From positions 1 to 64,000 of the forward strand of contig NZ_BBXE01000014.1 in assembly GCF_001570565.1 (NCBI RefSeq): a stretch of 64,000 nucleotides of DNA, given 5' to 3'. This document shows, piece after piece, positions 6,008-42,927 of this stretch; within the stretch, counting starts at the first letter, position 1; every line of letters begins with the position of its first letter. Origin of the DNA: Herbidospora yilanensis (GTDB lineage: Bacteria > Actinomycetota > Actinomycetes > Streptosporangiales > Streptosporangiaceae). The notes under the pieces are model-generated. The model was not told the origin of the DNA. It made no database searches and saw only the letters and a program-made list of their open reading frames with translations. The translations under genes and the position numbers were made by a program.

Positions 6008-7933
6008 ATGAGCTCGATCTTCCAGGATGTGCGTGACTACGTCGCCGTCCCCCGGACGGCGTCGTTGCGACTCGCCCCCGACGGCTCCCGGCTCGTGGCC
6101 GTCACGCAGTCCCTGAACCCCGACCGCAAGAGCTACGGCACCGCGATCTACGACATCCCCCTCGACCCGTCCGGCGAGCCCACCCGGCTGACCCGGTCGG
6201 CGAAGGGAGAGGGAGGCGCCGTCTTCACCCCGGACGGCGACCTGCTCTTCGTGTCCGCCCGCCCCGACCCCGCCGAGAAGGACGCGGACGACCGGCCCGC
6301 CCTGTGGCTCCTGCCGAAGACGGGCGAGGCCCGCCGCCTGGCCACCCGCCCGGGAGGGATCTCCGGCGTGCGGGCCGGCGGCTCCTCGATCGTGTACGCC
6401 GCCGACGTCTTCCCCGGCGACCTCGACTCCGAGCGCGACCGCCGCAAGGAACGCGAGGAGGCCGGGATCAGCGCGATCCTCCACGAGGGCTACCCGGTCC
6501 GCTTCTGGGACCACGACATCGGCCCCGGCGGCCCCCGGTTGTTCTCGCTGGAGCACGGCGACCTGACCCCCGACGCGGGCAACGCCCTGCAGCGGACCTC
6601 CTTCGACGTCACCCCCGACGGCGCGACCGTCGTGGCGCTGTGGCGCGACGACTTCCCCGGCGGCGACTACCGCGCCCGCGTGGTCGCGCTGACGGGCGGC
6701 GAGCGCCGGGTCCTGGCGAGCGACGACGACCACAACTTCGAGGGCCCCGTCGTGGTCTCGCCCGACGGCCGCTACATTGCGTGCCACCGTGAGCGCCTCA
6801 CCTCGGAGACGGTCTCGGCCAGGGGCGAATTGTGGCTGATCGACCTGGAGACCGGCGACCAGCGCGCCCTGGGCGACTCCGGCTACTCGATCGCCTGGGC
6901 CCCCGACTCCTCCTTCCTGTACGCCGCCTGCGACGACCGCGGCCGCCGCCCGATCTTCGCGGTGTCCCTCGACGGCGAGCGCCGCCGGGTCACCCCCGAC
7001 CACGGCGCCTACACCGAGATCAACGTGGCCCCCGACGGCACCGTCTACGCCCTGCGCGGCGCGGTCGACCACCCGCCGGCGCCGGTCAAGCTCGTCGAGG
7101 GCGGTTACGTCGTCCTGCCGTCGCCGACCCCGGTCCCCGACCTGCCCGGCACGCTCACCGAGATCACCGCCACCGCGGAAGACGGCACCGAGATCCACGC
7201 CTGGCTGGTGCTGCCCGCCTCCGACGAGCCCGCCCCGCTGCTGCTGTGGATCCACGGCGGCCCGCTCGGAAGCTGGAACGACTGGTCGTGGCGCTGGAAC
7301 CCGTGGATCATGGCCGCGCGGGGCTACGCCGTCCTGCTGCCCGACCCCGCCATGTCGACCGGCTACGGCCAGGAGATGATCGACCGGGGCTGGGGCGAGT
7401 GGGGCCCGGTCACCTTCGGCGACCTGATGGCCGTCACCGACGCGGCGTGCAAGCTCCCCGAGATCGACGAGACCCGCACCGCCGCCATGGGCGGCTCGTT
7501 CGGCGGCTACATGGCCAACTGGGTGGCCGGCCACACCTCCCGCTTCAAGGCGATCGTCACCCACGCCTCCCTGTGGAACCTCGACCAGTTCGCCGGCACG
7601 ACCGACGTCTCCTCCTACTGGCAGCGCGAGTTCGGCCTGCCCGGCTCGCCGCGCTACGAACGCCTGTCGCCGCACCACCGGCTCGACCGGATCAGCACGC
7701 CGATGCTGGTCATCCACGGCGACAAGGACTACCGCGTGCCGATCGGCGAGGCCCTGCGGTTGTGGTGGGACCTCCAGCGCACGGGGGCCGAGGCCAAGTT
7801 CCTGTACTTCCCCGACGAGAACCACTGGATCCTCAAGCCCGGCAACACCGTCGCCTGGTACGAGACGATCCTCGCCTTCCTGGCCCACCATGTGCGGGGC
7901 GAGGAGTGGCGGCGGCCCGGCTCGGTGGCCTGA
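6008..7933 (+). CDS. S9 family serine peptidase (prolyl oligopeptidase/acylaminoacyl-peptidase type)
   Basis: 641 residues without a signal peptide, so probably cytoplasmic. The N-terminal half (to about residue 380) is a beta-propeller with repeated SPDG/TPDG turns. The C-terminal alpha/beta-hydrolase domain carries the full catalytic triad: Ser497 in GGSFGGY, Asp574 in HGDKDYRVP, and His606 in ENHWIL. Such enzymes cleave short peptides or remove N-terminal acyl-amino acids. A G-rich ribosome site (GGGGGGTAGG) precedes the ATG. The oxyanion-hole HGGP motif (WIHGGPLG) is intact. Confidence 0.9.
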   Translation: MSSIFQDVRDYVAVPRTASLRLAPDGSRLVAVTQSLNPDRKSYGTAIYDIPLDPSGEPTRLTRSAKGEGGAVFTPDGDLLFVSARPDPAEKDADDRPALWLLPKTGEARRLATRPGGISGVRAGGSSIVYAADVFPGDLDSERDRRKEREEAGISAILHEGYPVRFWDHDIGPGGPRLFSLEHGDLTPDAGNALQRTSFDVTPDGATVVALWRDDFPGGDYRARVVALTGGERRVLASDDDHNFEGPVVVSPDGRYIACHRERLTSETVSARGELWLIDLETGDQRALGDSGYSIAWAPDSSFLYAACDDRGRRPIFAVSLDGERRRVTPDHGAYTEINVAPDGTVYALRGAVDHPPAPVKLVEGGYVVLPSPTPVPDLPGTLTEITATAEDGTEIHAWLVLPASDEPAPLLLWIHGGPLGSWNDWSWRWNPWIMAARGYAVLLPDPAMSTGYGQEMIDRGWGEWGPVTFGDLMAVTDAACKLPEIDETRTAAMGGSFGGYMANWVAGHTSRFKAIVTHASLWNLDQFAGTTDVSSYWQREFGLPGSPRYERLSPHHRLDRISTPMLVIHGDKDYRVPIGEALRLWWDLQRTGAEAKFLYFPDENHWILKPGNTVAWYETILAFLAHHVRGEEWRRPGSVA

Positions 7934-30318: not shown

Positions 30319-31704
30319 GTGCTGATGACCATCTCGACCACCCGTGAACCGGCGACCGATCTCGGCTTCCTGCTGCACAAGCATCCGGATCGAGTGCAGG
30401 AGTTCCCACGGGCGTTCGGGGTCGCGCACGTCTTCTATCCCGAGGCCACCGACCAGAGGTGCACCGCGGCGCTGCTGCTCGACGTCGATCCGGTACGGCT
30501 CGCGCGCACCCGCGGCAGGACGACCCCCGACTTCAGCCTCGGCCAGTACGTCAACGACCGGCCCTACGCCGCGTCGTCGCTGCTGTCGACCGCCATGGCC
30601 GAGGTGTTCCGCACGGCCAGGTCGGGCCGGTGCGACGCCCGGCCGGAACTGGCCCGGTCGGCGATCCCGCTGGAGATCGTGCTTCCGGCGTTGCCGTGCC
30701 GGGGCGGGCCGACGCTGGCCCGGCGGCTGTTCGAGCCCATGGGCTGGGACGTCACGGCCGACCCGATCCCGCTCGACCCGGCCTTTCCCGAATGGGGCGA
30801 CTCCCGCTACGTCACCCTCACGCTGAAGGGCGAGCTCCGGCTCGCCGACGCGCTCAACCACCTCTACGTCCTGCTGCCGGTCCTCGACGACGCCAAGCAC
30901 TACTGGATCGCCGAGGACGAGGTCGACAAGCTGATCCGCGCGGGGGAGGGCTGGCTGGCCGCCCATCCCGACCTCACCCTCATCACCCGCCGGTACCTCA
31001 ACCGCCGGACCGCCCTGACCAGGGCCGCCTTCGCCCGGCTGGCCGAGGTGGGCGACGACGAGGAGGAGACGCTGGAACCGCCGGCCGAGGAGGAGGTGCG
31101 CATCCCCCTCAACACCCTCCGCCGGGACGCCGTGGTGGAGACCCTCGCCGAACTCCAGGCGCGGAGCGTCATCGATCTCGGCTGCGGGTCGGGACAACTG
31201 ATCTCGGCCCTGCTCGACCAGGGCGTACCGAAGATCACTGGAGTGGACGTCTCCGCCCACACGCTCATGATCGCGGCGCGGCGGCTCAAACTCGACCGCA
31301 TGGGGAGCCGGACCCGCGAGCGGGTGGACCTCTTCCAGGGCTCGGTCACCTACACCGACGCCCGGTTCGCCGGATATGACGCCGCCGTGCTGATGGAGGT
31401 CGTCGAGCACCTCGACCCGCCCCGGCTCCCGGCCATGGAGCGGGTCGTCTTCGGCGCCGCCAAGCCCACGTACGTGCTGGTCACCACGCCCAACGCCGAA
31501 TACAACCCGCGCTACGCGAACCTGACCGGCCTGCGCCACCCCGACCACCGCTTCGAGTGGACCCGCGCCGAGTTCCGCGAATGGGCCGGGAGCGTCGCCG
31601 AACGGTACGGCTACCAGGTCGAACACCGCCCCGTCGGCGACGACGACCCCGACGTCGGCTCGCCCACCCAGATGGCCGTCTTCGTGAAGGAGGGTTCGGC
31701 ATGA
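30319..31704 (+). CDS. hen1: Hen1 3'-terminal RNA ribose 2'-O-methyltransferase
   Basis: About 461 residues from the GTG at 30319 (an ATG two codons later is equally possible). The N-terminal half (to about 240) is the bacterial Hen1-N domain. The C-terminal methyltransferase has the SAM loop VIDLGCGSGQLISALL and the metal-binding motif EVVEHLD with Glu360, Glu363 and His364, plus a later histidine in RHPDHRFEW. It marks the 2'-OH of a broken RNA end before ligation, making the repaired junction resistant to recutting. It overlaps pnkp by 4 bp (ATGA), the classical operon. Confidence 0.95.
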   Translation: MLMTISTTREPATDLGFLLHKHPDRVQEFPRAFGVAHVFYPEATDQRCTAALLLDVDPVRLARTRGRTTPDFSLGQYVNDRPYAASSLLSTAMAEVFRTARSGRCDARPELARSAIPLEIVLPALPCRGGPTLARRLFEPMGWDVTADPIPLDPAFPEWGDSRYVTLTLKGELRLADALNHLYVLLPVLDDAKHYWIAEDEVDKLIRAGEGWLAAHPDLTLITRRYLNRRTALTRAAFARLAEVGDDEEETLEPPAEEEVRIPLNTLRRDAVVETLAELQARSVIDLGCGSGQLISALLDQGVPKITGVDVSAHTLMIAARRLKLDRMGSRTRERVDLFQGSVTYTDARFAGYDAAVLMEVVEHLDPPRLPAMERVVFGAAKPTYVLVTTPNAEYNPRYANLTGLRHPDHRFEWTRAEFREWAGSVAERYGYQVEHRPVGDDDPDVGSPTQMAVFVKEGSA

Positions 31705-34154
31705 CCGAGATCCGTGTCCCCGCGCTGTCGCTGGTCGTGCTGGTCGGGGTGTCCGGCAGCGGCAAGTCCACCTTCGCGCGCAAGCACTTCAAGCCCACCC
31801 AGATCGTCTCCTCCGACCACTGCCGCGGGCTGGTCTCCGACGACGAGAACGACCAGGCCGCCACGCCGGAGGCGTTCGACCTGCTGCACCACATCGTCGG
31901 CGTGCGGCTGCGGCGCGGGCTGCTGACCGTGGTCGACGCGACCAACGTCCAGTGGAAGGCCCGGGAGGCGCTGGTCGCCCTGGCCAGAAGTCACGACGTG
32001 TTGTGCGACGCGATCGTGCTCGACGTGCCCGAGGAGGTGGCGGTCGCCCGGAACGCCTCCCGGCCCGACCGCGACTTCGGCTCCCACGTCATCCGCAGGC
32101 AGCGGAACGACCTGCGGAAGTCGCTGTCGAAGATCTCCCGCGACGGGTTCCGCCGCGTCCACGTGCTGCGCGGCGGCGAGATCGACGACGCCGTGATCGG
32201 CTACGAGAAGGCGTGGACCGACAAGAGGGAACTGACCGGGCCGTTCGACGTCATCGGCGACGTGCACGGCTGCGCCTCGGAGCTGGAGACCCTGCTCGCC
32301 ACCCTCGGCTACCAGGACGGCGTGCACCCCGGCGGCCGGACGGCCGTGTTCGTCGGCGACCTCGTCGACCGGGGGCCCGACAGCCCGGGGGTGCTGCGCC
32401 GGGTCATGGGCATGGTCGAGCGCGGCACCGCGTTGTGCGTCTCGGGCAACCACGAGCAGAAGCTGGTACGCGCCCTCAACGGCCGCAAGGTGCGGGTCGC
32501 CCACGGCCTGGAGACGTCGCTGGAGCAGTTCGCCCGCGAAGACGACGTGTTCACCGGCCGGGCCAAGGCCTTCATGGAGGGCCTGATCAGCCACTACGTC
32601 CTCGACGGCGGCCGGCTCGTGGTCGCGCACGCCGGTCTCAAGGAGGCCTACCACGGCCGGGCCTCGGGCCGGGTGCGGTCGTTCGCGCTCTACGGCGACA
32701 CCACCGGCGAGACCGACGAGTACGGCCTGCCGGTCCGCTACCCGTGGGCCGAGGAGTACCGGGGCCGGGCCATGGTCGTCTACGGCCACACCCCGACCAC
32801 CCACGCCGAATGGGTCAACAACACCATCTGTCTCGACACCGGCGCCGTCTTCGGCGGCCGGCTCACCGCGCTGCGCTACCCGGAGAGGGAACTCGTCTCG
32901 GTCCCGGCCGAGCGGGTCTGGTACGAACCGGCCCGCCCGCTCGCCTCGCGGGGCCGCGAGCCCGACGTGCTGGACATCCGCGACGTCACCGGCGACCGCT
33001 ACGTCGAGACCTCGACCGGCACGGTCAAGATCAGGGAGGAGAACGCCACCGCCGCCCTGGAGATCATGAGCCGGTTCGCGGTCGACCCGCGCTGGCTGGT
33101 CTACCTGCCGCCCACGATGGCCCCGCCGGAGACCTCGAAGAAGGACGGCTACCTCGAACACCCCGACGAGGCCTTCGCCGAGTTCGCCGCCGCCGGGGTC
33201 ACCCGGGTGGTGTGCGAGGAGAAGCACATGGGCTCGCGGGCGATCGTCGTGCTGGCCCGCACGCCGGCGGACGCCCAGGCGAAGTTCGGCGTCGAGGGCA
33301 CCGGCACGATCTTCACCAGGACCGGCCGCCCCTTCTTCGGCGACCTCCAGGAGGAGTTCGTGGCCGGGCTCCGCGAGGCCTTCGCGCCGCTGCTGGAGGA
33401 CTCCCCGTGGGTGGTGCTCGACGGCGAGCTGCTGCCCTGGTCGGCCAAGGCCGGCGAGCTCATCCGCAGCCAGTACGCCTCGGTCGGCGCCGCCGCCGGG
33501 GCCGCGCTGCCCGTGGTGGTGACGGCGCTGGAGGCGGCGGCCGGGCGTGGCCTGGATGTGGGACCGGTACTGGACCGCGCCCGGCGCCGCGAGAGCAACG
33601 CTGCCCGGTTCCGCGAGGCGTATGCCCGTTACTGCGAGCCCGTTTCCGGTGTTTCCGGGCTGCGCTTCGCGCCCTTCCAGATCCTCGCCTGCGCCGAGGG
33701 CGCCACCGCGGTGACCCGGCCGCACGACTGGCACCTCGACCGGCTGGCCGCCGTCACGCATCCGCTGGTGCGCGCGACCCGGCACACGTACGTGGACCTG
33801 GAGAAGGAGGACCGGCGCCAGGCGGCGGTCGACTGGTGGACGGCGCTCACCGACGCGGGCGGCGAGGGCATGGTGGTCAAGCCGGTCGCCCACCCCGGCG
33901 GCCGGGTGCAGCCGGGGATCAAGGTGCGCGGGCCCGAGTACCTGCGCATCATCTACGGCCCCGACTACCTGGAATCGCTCGACGAGCTGCGCCGGCGTTT
34001 TCTCGGCCGGAAGCGGTCGCTGGCGCTGCGCGAGCATAGCCTGGGGATCGAGGCGCTCTCGCGACTGGCGGCCGGCGAGCCGTTCCACCGCGTCCACGAG
34101 GCGGTCTTCTCCGTGCTCGCCCTGGAGTGTGAGCCGGTCGATCCCCGGTTGTGA
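31701..34154 (+). CDS. pnkp: Polynucleotide kinase-phosphatase-ligase Pnkp
   Basis: 817 residues from the ATG at 31701, with GAAGGAGGG upstream. Three catalytic modules in order. The 5'-kinase (1-170) has a P-loop ending GSGKST with Lys22 and Ser23. The metallophosphatase (about 180-410) contains Asp187 and His189 in GDVHGC, GDLVDRG at 219 and GNHE at 249. The ligase/adenylyltransferase (about 470-817) has nucleophile Lys508 in EEKHMGSRA and VVLDGELL near 571. It heals and, with Hen1, seals RNAs cut by ribotoxins. No module is truncated and all key residues are present. Confidence 0.95.
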   Translation: MTEIRVPALSLVVLVGVSGSGKSTFARKHFKPTQIVSSDHCRGLVSDDENDQAATPEAFDLLHHIVGVRLRRGLLTVVDATNVQWKAREALVALARSHDVLCDAIVLDVPEEVAVARNASRPDRDFGSHVIRRQRNDLRKSLSKISRDGFRRVHVLRGGEIDDAVIGYEKAWTDKRELTGPFDVIGDVHGCASELETLLATLGYQDGVHPGGRTAVFVGDLVDRGPDSPGVLRRVMGMVERGTALCVSGNHEQKLVRALNGRKVRVAHGLETSLEQFAREDDVFTGRAKAFMEGLISHYVLDGGRLVVAHAGLKEAYHGRASGRVRSFALYGDTTGETDEYGLPVRYPWAEEYRGRAMVVYGHTPTTHAEWVNNTICLDTGAVFGGRLTALRYPERELVSVPAERVWYEPARPLASRGREPDVLDIRDVTGDRYVETSTGTVKIREENATAALEIMSRFAVDPRWLVYLPPTMAPPETSKKDGYLEHPDEAFAEFAAAGVTRVVCEEKHMGSRAIVVLARTPADAQAKFGVEGTGTIFTRTGRPFFGDLQEEFVAGLREAFAPLLEDSPWVVLDGELLPWSAKAGELIRSQYASVGAAAGAALPVVVTALEAAAGRGLDVGPVLDRARRRESNAARFREAYARYCEPVSGVSGLRFAPFQILACAEGATAVTRPHDWHLDRLAAVTHPLVRATRHTYVDLEKEDRRQAAVDWWTALTDAGGEGMVVKPVAHPGGRVQPGIKVRGPEYLRIIYGPDYLESLDELRRRFLGRKRSLALREHSLGIEALSRLAAGEPFHRVHEAVFSVLALECEPVDPRL

Positions 34155-34437: not shown

Positions 34438-35847
34438 ATGGGGGGTCCACCGGTAGCCGCGCAACGGCAGGAGCGTCTCGGCTACGTCACGTTCATCGCG
34501 GCGGCCGGTGCCATCGGCGGTTTCCTGTTCGGCTACGACAGCGCGGTGATCAACGGCGCCGTGGTCGGCATCCAGCGCTATTTCAACGTGGGCCCGGTCA
34601 CCATCGGCGTGGTGGTGGCCATCGCACTGCTCGGCTCGGCCGTCGGGGCCTGGTTCGCCGGCAGCCTCGCCGACCGCTGGGGGCGCACCAAGACCATGCG
34701 CCTGGCCGCGGTCATCTTCGCCGTCAGCTCGATCGGGCAGGCGCTGCCGTTCGCGATCTGGGATCTGGCCTTCTGGCGTGTCCTCGCCGGCGCCGCGATC
34801 GGCATGGCCTCGGTCCTCGGGCCCGCCTACATCGCCGAGGTCGCCCCGCCCGCCTACCGGGGGCGGCTCGGGTCGTTCCAGCAGCTCGCGATCGTGCTCG
34901 GCATCGCCGTCTCCCAGTTGGTGAACTTCACGATCAACCTGTGGGCCGGGGGAGAGGTCAACAACCACCTCGGCCCCCTGGAGGCCTGGCAGTGGATGCT
35001 CGGCGCCTGCCTGGTGCCCGCCCTGATCTTCCTCGTCTTCGCCAGCGTCATCCCCGAATCGCCCCGCTACCTGGTCGCGGCCGGGCGCGAAGGGCAGGCC
35101 CGCGAGGTGCTGCGCGAGATCGAGGGCGACCACGTCGACCTCGACGACCGGGTGACCGAGATCAGGAGCGTGCTGCGCACCCGGCGGCCTCCCCGCCTCG
35201 CCGACCTGCGCGGACCCCGCTTCGGGCTGCTGCCGGTCGTCTGGGTCGGCGTCCTCCTGTCGGTCTTCCAGCAGTTCGTCGGCATCAACGTGATCTTCTA
35301 CTACTCGACGGTGCTCTGGCAGTCGGTCGGCATCACCCAGTCGGACTCGCTGCTGATCAGCTTCTCCAGTTCGATCATCAACATCGTCGGCACGTTCATC
35401 GCCATGGCCCTGGTCGACCAGGTCGGCCGCCGCCCGCTGCTGCTGGTCGGCTCGGCCGGCATGGCGATCGCGCTGGCGGTGGCGTCGTGGTCGTTCAGCT
35501 ACAGCCGCACCGTCGACGGGATCGTGCAGCTCCCCGCCACGCAGGGCGCCGCCGCCCTGATCGCGGCCAACGCGTTCGTGTTGTTCTTCGCGTTGTCGTG
35601 GGGGGTCATCGTGTGGGTGCTGCTGGGCGAGATGTTCCCCGGCCGGATCAGGGCGGCGGCGCTGTCGGTCGCGGCGGCGGCGCAGTGGCTGGCCAACTGG
35701 GTGATCACCGTGACGTTCCCGCCGCTGGCCACCTGGAACCTGGCGCTCACCTACCTGTTCTACGCCGTGTTCGCCGCGTTGTCGTACCTCTTCGTGGTCT
35801 TCATCGTGAAGGAGACGAAGGGCCGAAGACTGGAGGAGATGGGGTAG
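34438..35847 (+). CDS. Sugar porter family MFS transporter
   Basis: 469 residues from the ATG at 34438 with GGCAGGTAGG upstream; an in-frame GTG at 34420 is an alternative. Twelve helices with sugar-porter signatures: FLFGYDSAVINGA in TM1, GSLADRWGRTKTM, IPESPRYLVAAGR after TM6, QQFVGINVIFYYS in TM7, DQVGRRPLLLVG, and the C-terminal KETKGRRLEEM. It is a proton-coupled sugar or polyol importer like XylE/GalP. The 3' end overlaps the convergent DUF6879 gene by 47 bp. The family type argues against a role as exporter of the nearby peptide. Confidence 0.9.
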   Translation: MGGPPVAAQRQERLGYVTFIAAAGAIGGFLFGYDSAVINGAVVGIQRYFNVGPVTIGVVVAIALLGSAVGAWFAGSLADRWGRTKTMRLAAVIFAVSSIGQALPFAIWDLAFWRVLAGAAIGMASVLGPAYIAEVAPPAYRGRLGSFQQLAIVLGIAVSQLVNFTINLWAGGEVNNHLGPLEAWQWMLGACLVPALIFLVFASVIPESPRYLVAAGREGQAREVLREIEGDHVDLDDRVTEIRSVLRTRRPPRLADLRGPRFGLLPVVWVGVLLSVFQQFVGINVIFYYSTVLWQSVGITQSDSLLISFSSSIINIVGTFIAMALVDQVGRRPLLLVGSAGMAIALAVASWSFSYSRTVDGIVQLPATQGAAALIAANAFVLFFALSWGVIVWVLLGEMFPGRIRAAALSVAAAAQWLANWVITVTFPPLATWNLALTYLFYAVFAALSYLFVVFIVKETKGRRLEEMG

Positions 35848-36409
35848 CCTCCGTCAGCCACGGGTCGAGGGCGTCGGCCTGGTCGTAGAGGGTCTCCAGC
35901 TCCGCCAGGCAGGCCGCGATCACCTCCCGCTCGACGATCCGCCGCCCGCCCAGATGGGCGCCGACGTCGTCGTAGCGGACCTCGTACATGAGGTCGCGGG
36001 ACAGGATAAGGATCTCCGGGAGCGGCCCCGCCCGCTCCAGGTGCCGCACCGCTCCGGCGTCGAGCACGCGGGTGCGTTCGCCCGCCCTGGCCCGGGCCTT
36101 CAGCACCTGAAGCTCCCATCGCAGGTACGCCGTCAGCGGCCGTTCGGCGATCCGCAACCGCCGCAGCTCCACCGAATCGGGCACGTCGGCGGCGATCTCC
36201 CCGGCCGACTCCTCGATCAGTTCCATCGCCCGGTCCCAGTCTCCCTCGGACCAGGCCACCCAGCTCGGGCTGTAGGGCTCGTGAAAGTGCTGGGCCCGCT
36301 CCAGCTTCCAGAGCACTCCTTCCATCTCGCGGTAGAGGCCGTAGAACTCGGTCGTGTACGCCTGCCGGTCGAGCGTGACCCCGGGTGCGCCTTGCACGAT
36401 CTCCCGCAC
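35801..36409 (-). CDS. DUF6879 family protein
   Basis: 202 residues from the GTG at 36409, chosen because CCAGGAGG lies four bases upstream; the longer frame would begin with TTG and no ribosome site. It matches the DUF6879 pattern: an early FYGLYREMEGVLWKLE helix, RRLRIAERPLTAYLRWEL in the middle, LPEILILSRDLMYEVRYDD, and a C-terminal helical acidic tail. DUF6879 proteins are abundant in actinomycetes, often beside HTH/DUF397 pairs, and are of unknown function. Here it is the last gene of an operon with a ThiF-type enzyme and a small peptide, 53 bp after the peptide. Confidence 0.8.
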   Translation of the reverse strand: MREIVQGAPGVTLDRQAYTTEFYGLYREMEGVLWKLERAQHFHEPYSPSWVAWSEGDWDRAMELIEESAGEIAADVPDSVELRRLRIAERPLTAYLRWELQVLKARARAGERTRVLDAGAVRHLERAGPLPEILILSRDLMYEVRYDDVGAHLGGRRIVEREVIAACLAELETLYDQADALDPWLTEATPSPPVFGPSSPSR

Positions 36410-36462
36410 ACATCCTCCTGGCGGTCCGGCGATCCGCGCCACTCGCCGGCCCGAAGTGGTGG

Positions 36463-36576
36463 TCAGTTCCCGTACGAGTTGCTGCAAATGGCTGTTTCGT
36501 TACGCTCCAGGCGGCGAATGGTGATCTGCCGTCTGACGGGCGTACTGGGCGTGGCGTCGTTTTGCGACTGTTTCAT
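36463..36576 (-). CDS. 37-residue putative RiPP precursor peptide ending in Asn
   Basis: ATG at 36576 with an excellent ribosome site (GGAAGG, seven bases upstream). The peptide starts MKQSQNDATPSTPV, has a basic central stretch RRQITIRRLERNE, and ends AICSNSYGN, so the last residue is asparagine. No signal peptide or membrane segment. It sits between the ThiF-like gene (61 bp upstream) and DUF6879, all leftward. MccB-type ThiF enzymes adenylate the C-terminal Asn of their peptide in microcin C synthesis; that would make this the substrate, with QITIRRLE as the leader part bound by the RRE-like domain. This is inference. Confidence 0.65.
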   Translation of the reverse strand: MKQSQNDATPSTPVRRQITIRRLERNETAICSNSYGN

Positions 36577-36637
36577 CCCGTTACCTTCCGTCCCGGTTCC
36601 CCGACACGAGGTGATCGTAAAGCGGCCCTCGGAGCCG

Positions 36638-37717
36638 TCAAGGCCCAAAGCACGTCGGGCAGCCCGCGCGGGCGGCGTGGCGGGCGTAGACGTGGTGGTC
36701 GGGCGAGAGCAGATTGATCCCGTGGACGTAGCCCGGCGCCACCTCGGGCACCCCGGTGACCAGGGAGATGATCGCCTGCGCGACGAGATGGCCGGAGATC
36801 CCGGCCGACGTGCCGGTCACGCCGGGGCCGCCGAGATCGGGCACCCCGCCGTCGGGCCGGTGGGCCTGCTCGGCCGCGGCGACGCACTCGTAGCAGGCGC
36901 CCTTGGGCGGGTCGAAGACGCCGACGGTGACGAGCGGCCCGTTGTAGCCGCCGCCCGCCCACGGCACCCGGGCCGCCGCGCAGGCCCGGCTGGCCCAGAC
37001 GCGGATGCCCTCGCCCCTGGGCTCGTCGGCGCAGAGGGCGAGGGCGTCGTAGCCGTCGACCAGTGATCGCAGGTCGGCCTCGCCGGTGACGCGGTGGCGG
37101 GCCGAGGTGACCACGATGTCGCTGTTGGCCTCGCCCAGCCGGTCGCGGGCCAGGTCGGCCTTGGGCCGGCCGACGTCGGCCTCGGTGTAGAGCAGTTGCC
37201 GGTTCAGGTTGGAGAGCTCGACCAGGTCGGGGTCGACGCAGTGGAGCCGCCCGACGCCGGTCGCGGCCAGCGCCCAGGCGGCGTGACTGCCGGTGCCGCC
37301 GAGCCCCACCACGACGACACGCGCCCGTTTCAGGGCGAGCTGGGTCTCCCACGCGCTGTGGCCGGGCACCAGGTCGACGCCCCGGAAGAAGGCCTGGTTG
37401 CGGCTGTAGCGGTCGACCTCACGCGGGGTGAGCCCACGCGGCGGGGGAGCGGTGGCCTCCTCCAGGTAGCCGGAGCCGACCAGGTCGTCGACGACGCCGC
37501 GCGCCTCGCCGGGACTGAGCTCGGGGAACATCACGATCAGCCGCGCGGCCACCGCCTCGGGCGCGCGCCGCCCGTCGAGCAGCGACAGGGCCGCCCAGAC
37601 CCAGCCCTCCGGATCGTCGATCTCGGCGGCGAGCCCGTAGATCTCGCCGCCGATGCGGACGGTCCCCCCGGTGGTGCGGAACGGGCGGTGCTCCGCTTTG
37701 ACCCGCGGGAACCGCAA
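36638..37717 (-). CDS. ThiF/MccB-like peptide-adenylating enzyme with N-terminal RRE-like domain
   Basis: 359 residues from a TTG at 37717 with GGGGGAG upstream. Residues about 20-88 form a PqqD/RRE-like winged helix (EGWVWAALSLLDGRRAPEA to LVGSGYLEE). The E1-type adenylation domain follows: ATP loop VVVGLGGTGSHAAW (about 135-148), VDPDLVELSNLNRQ (161-174), and DVGRPKADLA. Two CxxC pairs (Cys275/278 and Cys353/356) make the structural zinc site. This order, peptide clamp then E1 domain, is that of MccB. It is the first gene of the operon with the Asn-ending peptide and DUF6879. A sulfur-carrier role seems less likely because no ThiS/MoaD gene is near. Confidence 0.8.
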   Translation of the reverse strand: MRFPRVKAEHRPFRTTGGTVRIGGEIYGLAAEIDDPEGWVWAALSLLDGRRAPEAVAARLIVMFPELSPGEARGVVDDLVGSGYLEEATAPPPRGLTPREVDRYSRNQAFFRGVDLVPGHSAWETQLALKRARVVVVGLGGTGSHAAWALAATGVGRLHCVDPDLVELSNLNRQLLYTEADVGRPKADLARDRLGEANSDIVVTSARHRVTGEADLRSLVDGYDALALCADEPRGEGIRVWASRACAAARVPWAGGGYNGPLVTVGVFDPPKGACYECVAAAEQAHRPDGGVPDLGGPGVTGTSAGISGHLVAQAIISLVTGVPEVAPGYVHGINLLSPDHHVYARHAARAGCPTCFGP

Positions 37718-37741
37718 TCTCGATCTCCCCCGTGCGACGCC

Positions 37742-38227
37742 TTATCTGTACCGCGTGGGTGTACGGCGCCCGTGCCGCGTGGCCGCCCCCACGACCAGCG
37801 AGATGATCCACAGGAAGAACAGGACCTTGAACACCGTGAACACGCCACCCACAAGGATCATCGCGATCAACGCCCCGACGATCAAGGGCACGAACGGCCC
37901 GATCCCCGGCCCGCGCCGGACGCGGGCGTAGGGGGGACGGGCGAGGTGGTATCCCCAGTTGCCCATGTCGATCCCGGGGGGCGTGCGCATCTGGGGGACC
38001 GGAGGCGCGCCGAGGCCCTGCCCGCCGGGCAGGTCGGCCAGGACCACCCCCAGGTCGCCGGCGGTCTTGGCGGCGAGCGTGACGTCGAGGCGCTCGTCGA
38101 GCTCCTCGCGGGTGAGCCGCCCCTGCGCGAACGCGTCGTGCAGGAAGGCGGTCACCTCGTCGCGCTCCTTGTCGCCGATTCGCATCGCGGCGGGCGGAAC
38201 GCCGGGCGGAACACGGTCAGCGGTCAT
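37742..38227 (-). CDS. DUF1707 domain membrane protein
   Basis: 161 residues. The DUF1707 (SHOCT-like) module is at about 14-66 (MRIGDKERDEVTAFLHDAFAQ...RLTREELDERLD), followed by a proline-rich linker and two membrane segments (about 107-125 and 128-148) with a basic tail. Such proteins are common in actinobacteria, and the module is thought to mediate protein contacts. It follows the PadR gene by 9 bp, so it is likely its co-transcribed partner. It stops 24 bp before the ThiF gene starts. Confidence 0.88.
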   Translation of the reverse strand: MTADRVPPGVPPAAMRIGDKERDEVTAFLHDAFAQGRLTREELDERLDVTLAAKTAGDLGVVLADLPGGQGLGAPPVPQMRTPPGIDMGNWGYHLARPPYARVRRGPGIGPFVPLIVGALIAMILVGGVFTVFKVLFFLWIISLVVGAATRHGRRTPTRYR

Positions 38228-38236
38228 GACGGGTCA

Positions 38237-38959
38237 CTACTCCTCGTCGGTGTCGCCGTCGGCCAGGACCTGGTAGAGCTTGCGCCGGGTCTCGGCCAGG
38301 ATCTTCTTGGCCTGACGCACCTGGCTCTCACTCCCAGTCTGCGCGATCTGGAACAAAGCGGACGCTGCCTGACGCGACAAATCAAACAATTCGTGGACGT
38401 TGTCTCCGATGTCGGGAGTCATCTCCTCCCACGGGGCGCGGACCTCGTCCTGGTGCTCGGCCACGTAGGCGCGGCCGGCGTCGGTGAGGGTGAAGGTCTT
38501 GCGGCCGTCTGCCTCCTCCGCGCGCACCAGCCCCTCGTCGGTGAGCTGCTGGAGCGCCGGGTAGACGGCGCCGGGGCTGGGCTTCCAGCCGCCCTGCGAC
38601 CGCTCGGCGATCTCCTGGATGATCTGGTAGCCGTTGCGCGGCTCCTCCGACAGCAGGGCCAGGATGGCGGCCCGGACGTCGCCGCGCTTGGCCTTGCGCC
38701 CCCGGCCGAAGCCGCGCGGCCCGAACGGGAAGCCCGGGCCGAAGGGCCCGCCGGGGCCGAACCCCGGCCCGCCGCCCCAGGGGCCGCCCCGGCCGCGGTG
38801 GCCTCGATGACGGTGGTCGTGCGGGCCGCCGCCCCCGGTCTCCCAGGTGGCGGCGAAGCCGCGCAGGTTCTCCTTGAGCGCGGCCTTGAGGTTGCGGATC
38901 TCCCGGTGGAACTCGTGCGGGTGGGCCCAGGGGCCACCCGCGGCGTGGGTGTTGGTCAT
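38237..38959 (-). CDS. PadR family transcriptional regulator
   Basis: 240 residues. The first 90 include a histidine- and glycine-rich low-complexity segment (GGGGPHDHRHRGHRGRGG, GGPGFGPGGPFGPGFPFG). The PadR winged helix covers about 93-170: RGDVRAAILALLSEEPRNGY, ERSQGGWKPSPGAVYPALQQL, and LVRAEEADGRKTFTLTDAGR. A C-terminal helical dimerisation region follows. It probably represses its own operon with the DUF1707 membrane protein; a perfect palindrome lies 31 bp before the start codon. The His-rich insert might bind metal. Confidence 0.92.
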   Translation of the reverse strand: MTNTHAAGGPWAHPHEFHREIRNLKAALKENLRGFAATWETGGGGPHDHRHRGHRGRGGPWGGGPGFGPGGPFGPGFPFGPRGFGRGRKAKRGDVRAAILALLSEEPRNGYQIIQEIAERSQGGWKPSPGAVYPALQQLTDEGLVRAEEADGRKTFTLTDAGRAYVAEHQDEVRAPWEEMTPDIGDNVHELFDLSRQAASALFQIAQTGSESQVRQAKKILAETRRKLYQVLADGDTDEE

Positions 38960-39325
38960 GTTTCCTCCAGAGTGTTACGCGATGCCTCAACGATATATCG
39001 AGAACATGTCGAATGCGAGAAAAACCCTGAAGTGACCCAAGTCACGAAAAAAGATGGGATGTCGGGGAACAGGTGCTGAGACCGCTCCGTTACATTGGGC
39101 AGAGACGGGATTGTTCCGCGCTGAGAGGGCTGGGGGGTGCTCTTGGAGCGGAGCGATCCCGTCTTGTATTTCCGGGCGGATCCGGATCCGGGGGTCCGGC
39201 CGCGCACGCGGGCCGTCCAAGTGGTTCGCCCACATGTGCCCGTTGGTCACGGCCGGGCGTAGGCGGGCCGTGTCGCCCGCTTTTTGTCGGTCCTTTGCCG
39301 TACGCTGCCGTGTCGTGATCTCGAC
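38960..39325. other. Intergenic region between padR and ydjM-like gene
   Basis: Divergent promoter region of 366 bp. It holds the palindromes near 38991-39009 on the padR side. The remainder is of average composition; short reading frames within it show no ribosome site or family resemblance. No convincing RNA gene was seen. Confidence 0.5.
38991..39009. promoter_or_regulatory. padR operator: Probable PadR operator
   Basis: A perfect 10-bp palindrome CGATATATCG (38991-39000) is followed after three bases by the palindrome ACATGT (39004-39009), in AT-rich DNA 31 bp upstream of the padR start codon. ATGT/ACAT half-sites are typical PadR contacts, and PadR genes are usually autoregulated; the assignment is inference. 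Confidence 0.5.
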
Positions 39326-40045
39326 ATGATGGGCCACTCCCACGCGCTGACCGGGGCGATCGTCTGGCTGGGCATCGCGCCCGGGCTCTCCGCGCTTCCC
39401 TCGGTGCTCGACTTCCAGCCGTCGCTGGCGTTCGCCACCGCGATGTCCCCGGCCGAGTTGATCGCCGGGGCGATCATCTGCGCCGGGGCGGCCATGCTGC
39501 CCGACCTCGATCACCCCAGCGCCACGATCGCGCAGACCTTCGGGCCGGTCACGTGGCTCCTCAGCAAGGGGGTGAACTTCGTCAGCGGGGGGCATCGCAA
39601 GGCGACCCACTCGCTGCTGTTCGCGATCCTCATGGGGGTGGGGGCCCACCTGCTGGCCGAGCGGTTCACCGTGGGGCAGGACATCCTCGTCGTGTTGTCG
39701 ATCGGGCTGGCGTTACGCGCGGTCGGCATCGGCGTGCCGGGGAACAAGATCGCTTCGGCGGTGGTCAACATCGTGCTGACCGGGGGCATATTCGCGGCGT
39801 TCTGGGGGCTGGGGGTGACCTACGCCTGGCTGGGGTTCGCGATCGGGATCGGCTGCTTCGTCCACGTTCTCGGCGACTGCCTGACCGAGCGGGGGTGCCC
39901 GGTGCTCTGGCCGCTCAAGCACAAGTGGCTGCTGCCGTGGGACTGGGGGCTGAAGACCGGGCAGAAGTTCGAGACCAAGATCCTCGCGCCGACGTTGTCG
40001 GTCGCCGTGTTCGCGCTGCTGTTCCTGCGGCTCATGCCGATGTGA
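39326..40045 (+). CDS. YdjM/DUF457-type membrane-bound metal-dependent hydrolase
   Basis: 239 residues from the ATG at 39326 (a second ATG follows immediately). The N-terminal MMGHSHALTGAIVWL and the PDLDHPSATIAQTFG and GGHRKATHSLLFA segments supply the histidines and aspartates of the LexA-regulated YdjM family. About five to six membrane helices. The biochemical role is unknown; in E. coli the family belongs to the SOS regulon. No SOS box was recognised here. The ribosome site is poor, so the transcript may be leaderless. Confidence 0.82.
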   Translation: MMGHSHALTGAIVWLGIAPGLSALPSVLDFQPSLAFATAMSPAELIAGAIICAGAAMLPDLDHPSATIAQTFGPVTWLLSKGVNFVSGGHRKATHSLLFAILMGVGAHLLAERFTVGQDILVVLSIGLALRAVGIGVPGNKIASAVVNIVLTGGIFAAFWGLGVTYAWLGFAIGIGCFVHVLGDCLTERGCPVLWPLKHKWLLPWDWGLKTGQKFETKILAPTLSVAVFALLFLRLMPM

Positions 40046-40064
40046 GATCCCGCGGCGGAATGCG

Positions 40065-40086
40065 ATATCTTGACATCAAGAGATAT
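40065..40086. promoter_or_regulatory. Dyad operator in aconitase promoter
   Basis: The core TCTTGA-CA-TCAAGA (40068-40081) is a perfect 6+2+6 dyad, flanked by ATA on the left and GATAT on the right. It contains a TTGACA that could be the -35 hexamer, so a protein bound here would block initiation. In S. coelicolor the acnA gene is controlled by the MarR-type regulator TamR; whether this is its site cannot be decided from sequence. Confidence 0.55.
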
Positions 40087-40092
40087 TCGCCC

Positions 40093-40112
40093 AAGGTTAG
40101 GCGAGCCTGACC
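40093..40112. promoter_or_regulatory. Iron-box-like sequence (IdeR/DmdR type) before aconitase
   Basis: AAGGTTAGGCGAGCCTGACC is a near-palindrome that agrees at 13 of the 19 positions with the actinobacterial iron box TTAGGTTAGGCTAACCTAA. It lies about 77 bp upstream of the acn start, just after the dyad. An iron-regulated aconitase would be sensible since the enzyme holds a 4Fe-4S cluster. Confidence 0.5.
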
Positions 40113-40120
40113 GATCAACC

Positions 40121-40140
40121 CCTCCCGTGCGTACGGGAGG
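40121..40140 (+). other. Leader hairpin upstream of acn
   Basis: Perfect 8-bp stem CCTCCCGT/ACGGGAGG with a GCGT loop, probably in the 5' untranslated leader 48 bp before the start codon. It could stabilise the mRNA or affect translation. Confidence 0.5.
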
Positions 40141-40188
40141 ATGGCCGGGCGAGTTGTCAACAGAGAACCTTTGGGGAGGCGAGACTTC

Positions 40189-42927
<2,739 letters not shown>

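Follow-up and report, generated by a model that had tools for sequence, protein, structure and literature searches.

Within a 64,000-nucleotide stretch of the genome of the soil actinomycete Herbidospora yilanensis (contig NZ_BBXE01000014.1, positions 1 to 64,000; hereafter the window), a ThiF-family enzyme, P0002, is encoded next to a 37-residue peptide. The two very probably form a pair for a ribosomally synthesized and post-translationally modified peptide (RiPP) of the ThiF-like-adenylyltransferase (TLAT) class. In the explanation that we favor overall (probability about 0.5), the peptide is bound by its leader and one of its carboxylates is adenylated, most likely that of the C terminus. 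The pair apparently belongs to a distinct actinobacterial TLAT group, marked by a leader and partners of its own. An initial annotation of the locus had proposed a microcin C-like system consisting of an enzyme and a short peptide ending in Asn. Both of its open reading frames (ORFs) proved correct in coordinates, strand, and frame; its description of the operon did not include the adjoining gene for a DUF6879 protein. The central features are as follows.

36638..37717, minus strand: P0002, adenylyltransferase with a RiPP recognition element (RRE) fused to a ThiF domain; 359 aa, TTG start
36463..36576, minus strand: precursor peptide, 37 aa, MKQSQNDATPSTPVRRQITIRRLERNETAICSNSYGN; under purifying selection, family profile score 46.4 bits
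36490..36525, minus strand: conserved leader motif I18–A29, ITIRRLERNETA, from an alignment of 27 peptides; local form of I-x-I-R-x-L-x-x-x-E-T-T
36466..36489, minus strand: putative core I30–N37, ICSNSYGN, taken to start past the E-T-T position
36614..36641, minus strand: sigma-70-like promoter site TTGACG-16-TACGAT ahead of the peptide gene
36584..36589, minus strand: ribosome binding site GGAAGG, 7 bases ahead of the ATG; identical in 7/7 Herbidospora sequences
35801..36409, minus strand: P0003, DUF6879 protein, 202 aa, GTG start, downstream of the peptide gene

An RRE-ThiF enzyme and a genuine peptide gene

P0002 is a member of the ThiF family (Pfam, E = 6e-47). The enzymes of named Herbidospora records are 88–97% identical, and that of H. 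cretacea begins with GTG at the position of the H. yilanensis TTG start. In the structure model (whole-model mean predicted local distance difference test score of 90.4), the N-terminal part is predicted to be an RRE-like domain with the order β-β-β-α-α-α. The sequence alignment to PaaA, the pantocin A enzyme, spans this domain (P0002 residues 4–228 against PaaA 8–230), whereas the sequence match to MccB, the microcin C enzyme, begins only past it. Structurally, the model aligns to MccB over residues 2–358, and MccB is its best match in the PDB. These results bear out the winged-helix N terminus and the MccB-like architecture of the initial annotation. The two CxxC pairs that it had pointed to (C275/C278 and C353/C356) are invariant in all 25 aligned enzymes, as are R173, K186, and D231. 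We matched R173 and K186 to the Arg and Lys of PaaA by counting on the PaaA alignment and D231, the metal-binding Asp, by motif.

In TLAT RiPPs, the leader is held by an RRE and adenylation is carried out by an E1 domain (PMC12250964). The same features are present here: an N-terminal RRE fused to an E1/ThiF domain, conserved ATP-binding Arg/Lys and metal-binding Asp residues, and a linked short precursor with a conserved leader (at 23/24 and 38/40 loci in the two surveys described below). The segment QITIRRLE, which had been proposed for leader recognition, coincides with the conserved leader motif.

The 37-residue ORF is a genuine gene under purifying selection, beyond what chance would produce. 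Its reading frame is kept in seven Herbidospora sequences, with differences mostly at third codon positions. Compared with the window copy, the most divergent of the six others has proportions of synonymous and nonsynonymous differences (pS and pN) of 0.35 and 0.06. Within the core, the sole change is I to V in H. cretacea, and all seven sequences end in Asn. One sigma-70-like site was found, against a mean of 0.1 in shuffled sequences, and its hexamers TTGACG and TACGAT are identical in 7/7 Herbidospora sequences with a variable spacer; conservation of the first hexamer is partly explained by its overlap with the enzyme's stop codon. The family profile still scored 26.2 bits on the window after removal of its only Herbidospora row; its maximum over 1.79 Mb of shuffled flanks was 7.1 bits, and real matches scored at least 23.2 bits. 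When 27 peptides were searched against NCBIfam, no model was listed with an E value of 10 or less, subject to the filters of HMMER.

Distribution and linkage of the family

An enzyme search of 149 related genomes gave 31 near-full-length places in 25 genomes, 7 of them in Herbidospora. Of the 24 non-Herbidospora places, 23 had a peptide matching the family profile within 1,500 bases, although that profile was itself built from such loci. By a fairer measure, the first seed profile found 13 of the 14 loci that had given no seed peptide (E up to 0.012). The initial annotation had asked whether a short ORF ending in Asn accompanies homologous enzymes and had named the lack of any conserved short ORF as counting against its proposal; the short ORF was found nearly throughout, whereas the Asn end was found in only 34 of 100 peptide rows (see below).

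Approached from the peptide, profile A1, built from 27 peptides that all come from loci with the enzyme, had matches at E = 0.001 in the family to which the window belongs (97 of 341 genomes) and in genus g87, probably Streptomyces (28 of 295 genomes; not every match inspected). It also matched 12 of 394 genomes in a class sample (E = 0.01), and in an even sample of 346 phylum genomes (E = 0.001), its one match was the window's own genome. The enzyme–peptide pair also occurs in another family of the same order (locus L068, genome G090). Among 40 loci chosen from the family and g87 matches listed, 38 had the enzyme and 31 a match to an M50 protease; the two without the enzyme were L169 and L195. 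Four of 15 class-sample loci (L101, L108, L111, and L112) had no enzyme.

Some of these loci are unusual in themselves. In L108, L111, and L112, peptides ending CSNSTGN adjoin DUF6879 genes with no enzyme in the 19 kb examined, and the three genomes (G228, G248, and G070) have a full locus elsewhere. L195 (minus strand, near 7277–7905) has a leader match in a longer frame and an M50-like fragment without an enzyme, and it appears to be a degenerate copy of the locus. In L068 (8296–8825, minus strand), four tandem precursors with differing tails stand behind one enzyme; E-C-T replaces E-T-T, and one precursor carries a repeated D-K-L stretch ahead of the E. In L076 (near 7709, plus strand) and L077, very distant enzyme–M50 pairs adjoin short ORFs ending KIEVRKVEAVKATQFMT.

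This linkage bears on the reading of P0002 as an ordinary MoeB/ThiF-type E1 for a sulfur carrier, with the peptide unrelated to it. ThiF and MoeB are recognizable relatives of its E1 domain. However, P0002 carries the extra RRE domain, a second, MoeB/MoeZ-like enzyme is encoded elsewhere in the same genome, and enzyme and peptide are linked in both directions. The 37-residue peptide is also too short for a ubiquitin-fold carrier, and a Pfam scan of 14 window proteins, which covered part of the ORFs and is the scan meant below, gave no ThiS/MoaD-type match. We consider a sulfur-carrier role, which the initial annotation had raised against its own proposal, very improbable.

Peptide anatomy and the site of activation

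Profile searching gave 101 matches in 86 loci. We excluded L195 from the counts of peptide ends, its leader match (36 bits, ETTGLR) lying inside a 178-residue frame without a readable tail end, which left 100 rows. These rows are partly redundant because loci from named records duplicate some of our genomes, so distinct cores are used where it matters. All 100 rows share the leader type I-x-I-R-x-L-x-x-x-E-T-T, and 98 have the strict spacing [IVL]-x-[IVL]-[RK]-x-[LVA]-x-x-x-E. The Glu is followed by [TC]-[TAS] in every row (E+1: Thr 96, Cys 4; E+2: Thr 89, Ala 9, Ser 2), and the window peptide has E-T-A here. Tails are 8 residues long in 52 rows, 9 in 26, 6 in 10, 7 in 6, 10 in 4, and 11 in 2. 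The 58 distinct tails are rich in Ser, Gly, and Asn and end in N (16), G (12), A (10), S (9), T (4), C (3), or E, D, M, or Q (1 each); by row, the last residue is N in 34, G in 19, A in 17, S in 14, T in 6, C in 4, E in 3, and Q, D, or M in 1 each. Cys occurs in 17 of 56 distinct cores and is terminal in 3 of 58; no Trp was found in the 56 cores listed.

Many relatives encode an M50 membrane protease, itself fused to an RRE, beside the precursor. Thr at E+2 occurs in 43 of 44 distinct entries with M50 and in 13 of 20 without it; since this Thr accompanies M50, a cut after E-T-T is likely in M50-bearing loci.

Given a RiPP pair of this class, we put activation of the C-terminal carboxylate at even odds. 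We favor this site because of the precedents of MccB and the enterofaecin enzyme EnfB, the narrow leader-to-end distance, the mostly small last residues, and the likely M50 cut after E-T-T. In such a pathway, the enzyme's RRE would bind the 37-residue precursor through the leader I-x-I-R-x-L-x-x-x-E-T, and the E1 domain would use ATP to adenylate a carboxylate, the C terminus being brought to the active site by a distance from the leader that varies little. A small nucleophile could then capture the acyl-adenylate, or a group within the peptide could do so, forming an imide, lactone, or thiolactone with net loss of water. In the many relatives that have it, the RRE-fused M50 protease would presumably recognize the same leader and, by cleaving after E-T-T, release a peptide of 6–11 residues rich in Ser, Gly, and Asn.

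Activation of the Glu27 side chain, in the manner of pantocin A and the GRC RiPPs, is a tentative second choice. Here, the Ser/Gly/Asn-rich tail would be a follower, and the attacker would be a neighboring backbone amide, giving a glutarimide, or a Thr, Cys, or Ser side chain. The Glu stands in all 100 rows, in strict spacing in 98, and always ahead of Thr or Cys, and it is PaaA, not MccB, whose sequence match to P0002 includes the RRE. PaaA itself acts on Glu16 and Glu17 of its precursor, and GrcB joins Glu35 to Cys39 (PMC12250964). However, the invariance of the Glu is in part a product of the search itself: the Glu is included in the profile and demanded by the pattern used to accept matches; the only match of the 101 to fail that pattern failed on its tail. 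The leader-like short ORFs at L076 and L077 have Lys in the Glu place (K-A-T), although they are weak precursor candidates (E = 0.18). Furthermore, a cut after E-T-T, if real, would exclude the Glu from the product. Some other activation site is less likely still.

The initial annotation had the enzyme adenylate a C-terminal Asn, as MccB does, and in that reading, the Asn would pass through a succinimide to an N–P-linked adenosine monophosphate, giving a peptidyl-nucleotide, at least in the Asn-ending branch. MccB is the best structural match, the window peptide ends in Asn, and proven leader-bearing MccA peptides of 36 and 46 residues from Hyalangium minutum are likewise Asn-ending (PMC7157772). 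Asn is also the last residue in 23 of the 25 rows with DUF6879 within 1.5 kb and in 11 of the 75 without it (Fisher p = 5e-5 on distinct entries). L184 adds to this pattern: its peptide, ETTSDSQGSSN, is the only Asn-ending one of 30 from g87, and it is the one g87 locus with DUF6879, which follows the enzyme and M50 genes just beyond 1.5 kb, a possible independent pairing of the Asn end with DUF6879. On the enzyme tree, however, the association amounts to ∼2 independent pairs in the same direction and is not significant. As a family trait, the C-terminal Asn was rejected: another residue is last in 66 of 100 rows and in 42 of 58 distinct cores, a variability that had been named in advance as counting against the proposal, and the enzyme tree shows at least seven changes between Asn and other ends. 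In a tree with reference E1 enzymes, 17 of the 24 family rows group together to the exclusion of MccB (98% support in the Shimodaira–Hasegawa-like approximate likelihood ratio test), although MccB, PaaA, and the other 7 rows are long branches of unsure placement. (Two enzyme trees were used, a quick tree of 78 rows and a second of 74 rows, made by the default method without L072, L073, L076, and L077.) None of the MccC-, MccE-, or MccF-type genes was recognized among the scanned proteins, apart from an opposite-strand transporter of the major facilitator superfamily (MFS). We therefore consider microcin C-like chemistry unlikely; it fails as a family rule and is possible for the Asn-ending branch that includes Herbidospora.

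DUF6879 was considered in two further roles. P0003 is the only DUF6879 match in the H. yilanensis genome, and in Herbidospora, the protein would perhaps act as a binder or self-protection factor. An active phospholipase D-type nuclease was rejected: the fold is similar, but the HxKx4D motif is absent in 9 of 9 proteins. As a dedicated RiPP partner, it was likewise rejected. Of 58 DUF6879 matches in g87, we examined 30 with ∼1.5 kb on each side, and none had the peptide, enzyme, or M50 gene, so DUF6879 looks recruited rather than dedicated. Several of these g87 loci (L208–L237) have a preceding short ORF of the VIGRDL...ERLVVIPR type.

Several observations weigh against the C-terminal, leader-bound pathway that we favor. 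The near-full-length enzyme relative L063 had no detectable peptide, nor at threshold did the distant or truncated enzymes at L073, L075, L076, and L077; conversely, L101 and L169 have a peptide with no enzyme in the DNA around the locus. The M50 protein had no match in any of the seven Herbidospora genomes, in a search that matched all three genomes chosen as controls (two strongly, one at 27–29% identity). On the tree, the M50–Thr association comes to ∼1.6 independent pairs that agree, with none disagreeing, and is not significant. A small last residue is weak evidence for C-terminal activation because Ser, Gly, and Asn are abundant inside the cores as well. Finally, an invariant Glu ahead of the tail and a PaaA-like RRE fit side-chain activation, as by PaaA and GrcB, equally well.

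Genomic context and relation to known systems

The genes around the pair are as follows.

37742..38227, minus strand: DUF1707 protein (Pfam, 2e-18), directly upstream of the enzyme gene and possibly in the same operon
38237..38959, minus strand: PadR-family regulator (Pfam, 4e-21), upstream neighbor
34438–35847, plus strand: sugar-transporter-type MFS gene (Pfam scan), on the strand opposite the operon
30319–34154, plus strand: Hen1-type RNA methyltransferase (Hen1_L, 9e-120), then a Pnkp kinase-phosphatase-ligase protein (Pfam)

The DUF1707 gene, which the PadR gene precedes, ends 24 bases from the enzyme gene. Other genera have subsets of the PadR-, DUF1707-, YdjM-, and aconitase-type neighbors (37742–42927) around their own peptide loci (L053, L057, L059, L105, L114, and L197), so the operon seems to have been long fixed at one chromosomal place. 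The Hen1 and Pnkp genes are a bacterial RNA repair pair adjoining the RiPP locus. An Rfam scan of positions 35000–39500 gave no match at the gathering score.

Four kinds of TLAT RiPPs were reviewed in 2025: microcin C, pantocin A, GRC, and enterofaecin (PMC12250964). The family shares with microcin C (MccB/MccA) the RRE, or peptide clamp, with an E1 domain and a short precursor, Asn-ending in Herbidospora; it differs in its variable last residue, its own I-x-I-R-x-L...E-T-T leader, and the separate clade of most of its enzymes. With pantocin A (PaaA/PaaP), it shares an RRE-ThiF enzyme similar through the RRE, the conserved Arg and Lys that PaaA requires, and a precursor Glu at a fixed place. 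However, there is no E-E-x core here, the Glu preceding Thr or Cys, and no PaaB-type oxygenase or PaaC-type EamA transporter was found among the scanned proteins. Like the GRC RiPPs (GrcB), it combines an RRE-ThiF enzyme with a Glu upstream of a short C-terminal tail and, in Herbidospora, a Cys in the core; unlike them, the window peptide has no pair of Glu and C-terminal Cys, the hosts are actinomycetes rather than streptococci, and no radical SAM protein was found in the same scan. Enterofaecin (EnfB/EnfA) likewise has an RRE-ThiF enzyme, an (I/V)-R type leader motif, and activation of the C-terminal carboxylate, which is what we favor here, whereas its W-W-I-V-I core has no counterpart in these Trp-free cores, and its organisms and partners are different.

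Outside the TLAT class, Eep-type M50 proteases process peptide pheromones. The pairing of an M50 membrane protease with a short-tailed precursor in the relatives is similar, whereas here the protease carries an RRE, stands beside an E1 enzyme, and has no match in Herbidospora.

The main text of the TLAT review makes no mention of actinomycetes by the terms actinomyce-, Streptomyces, Streptosporang-, or Nocardia (PMC12250964), and searches of open-licence PMC papers, judged by titles and abstract openings, turned up no description of this family. The boldest form of our proposal, which we hold to be unlikely, is an undescribed actinobacterial class in which one leader serves two RREs (those of the E1 and M50 proteins), giving exported peptides of 6–11 residues with an activated or cyclized C terminus; for the branch with Asn ends and linked DUF6879 genes, to which Herbidospora belongs, the product would be a peptidyl-nucleotide or a succinimide peptide, with the phospholipase D-like DUF6879 protein for self-protection. 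With one leader type and 58 distinct natural cores, the loci offer ready material for asking which carboxylate is activated by an RRE-E1 enzyme and how much variation the enzyme accepts. The locus is one member of a family that has drawn little notice; its products are probably short peptides with a chemical cap, and it is not clearly another microcin C.
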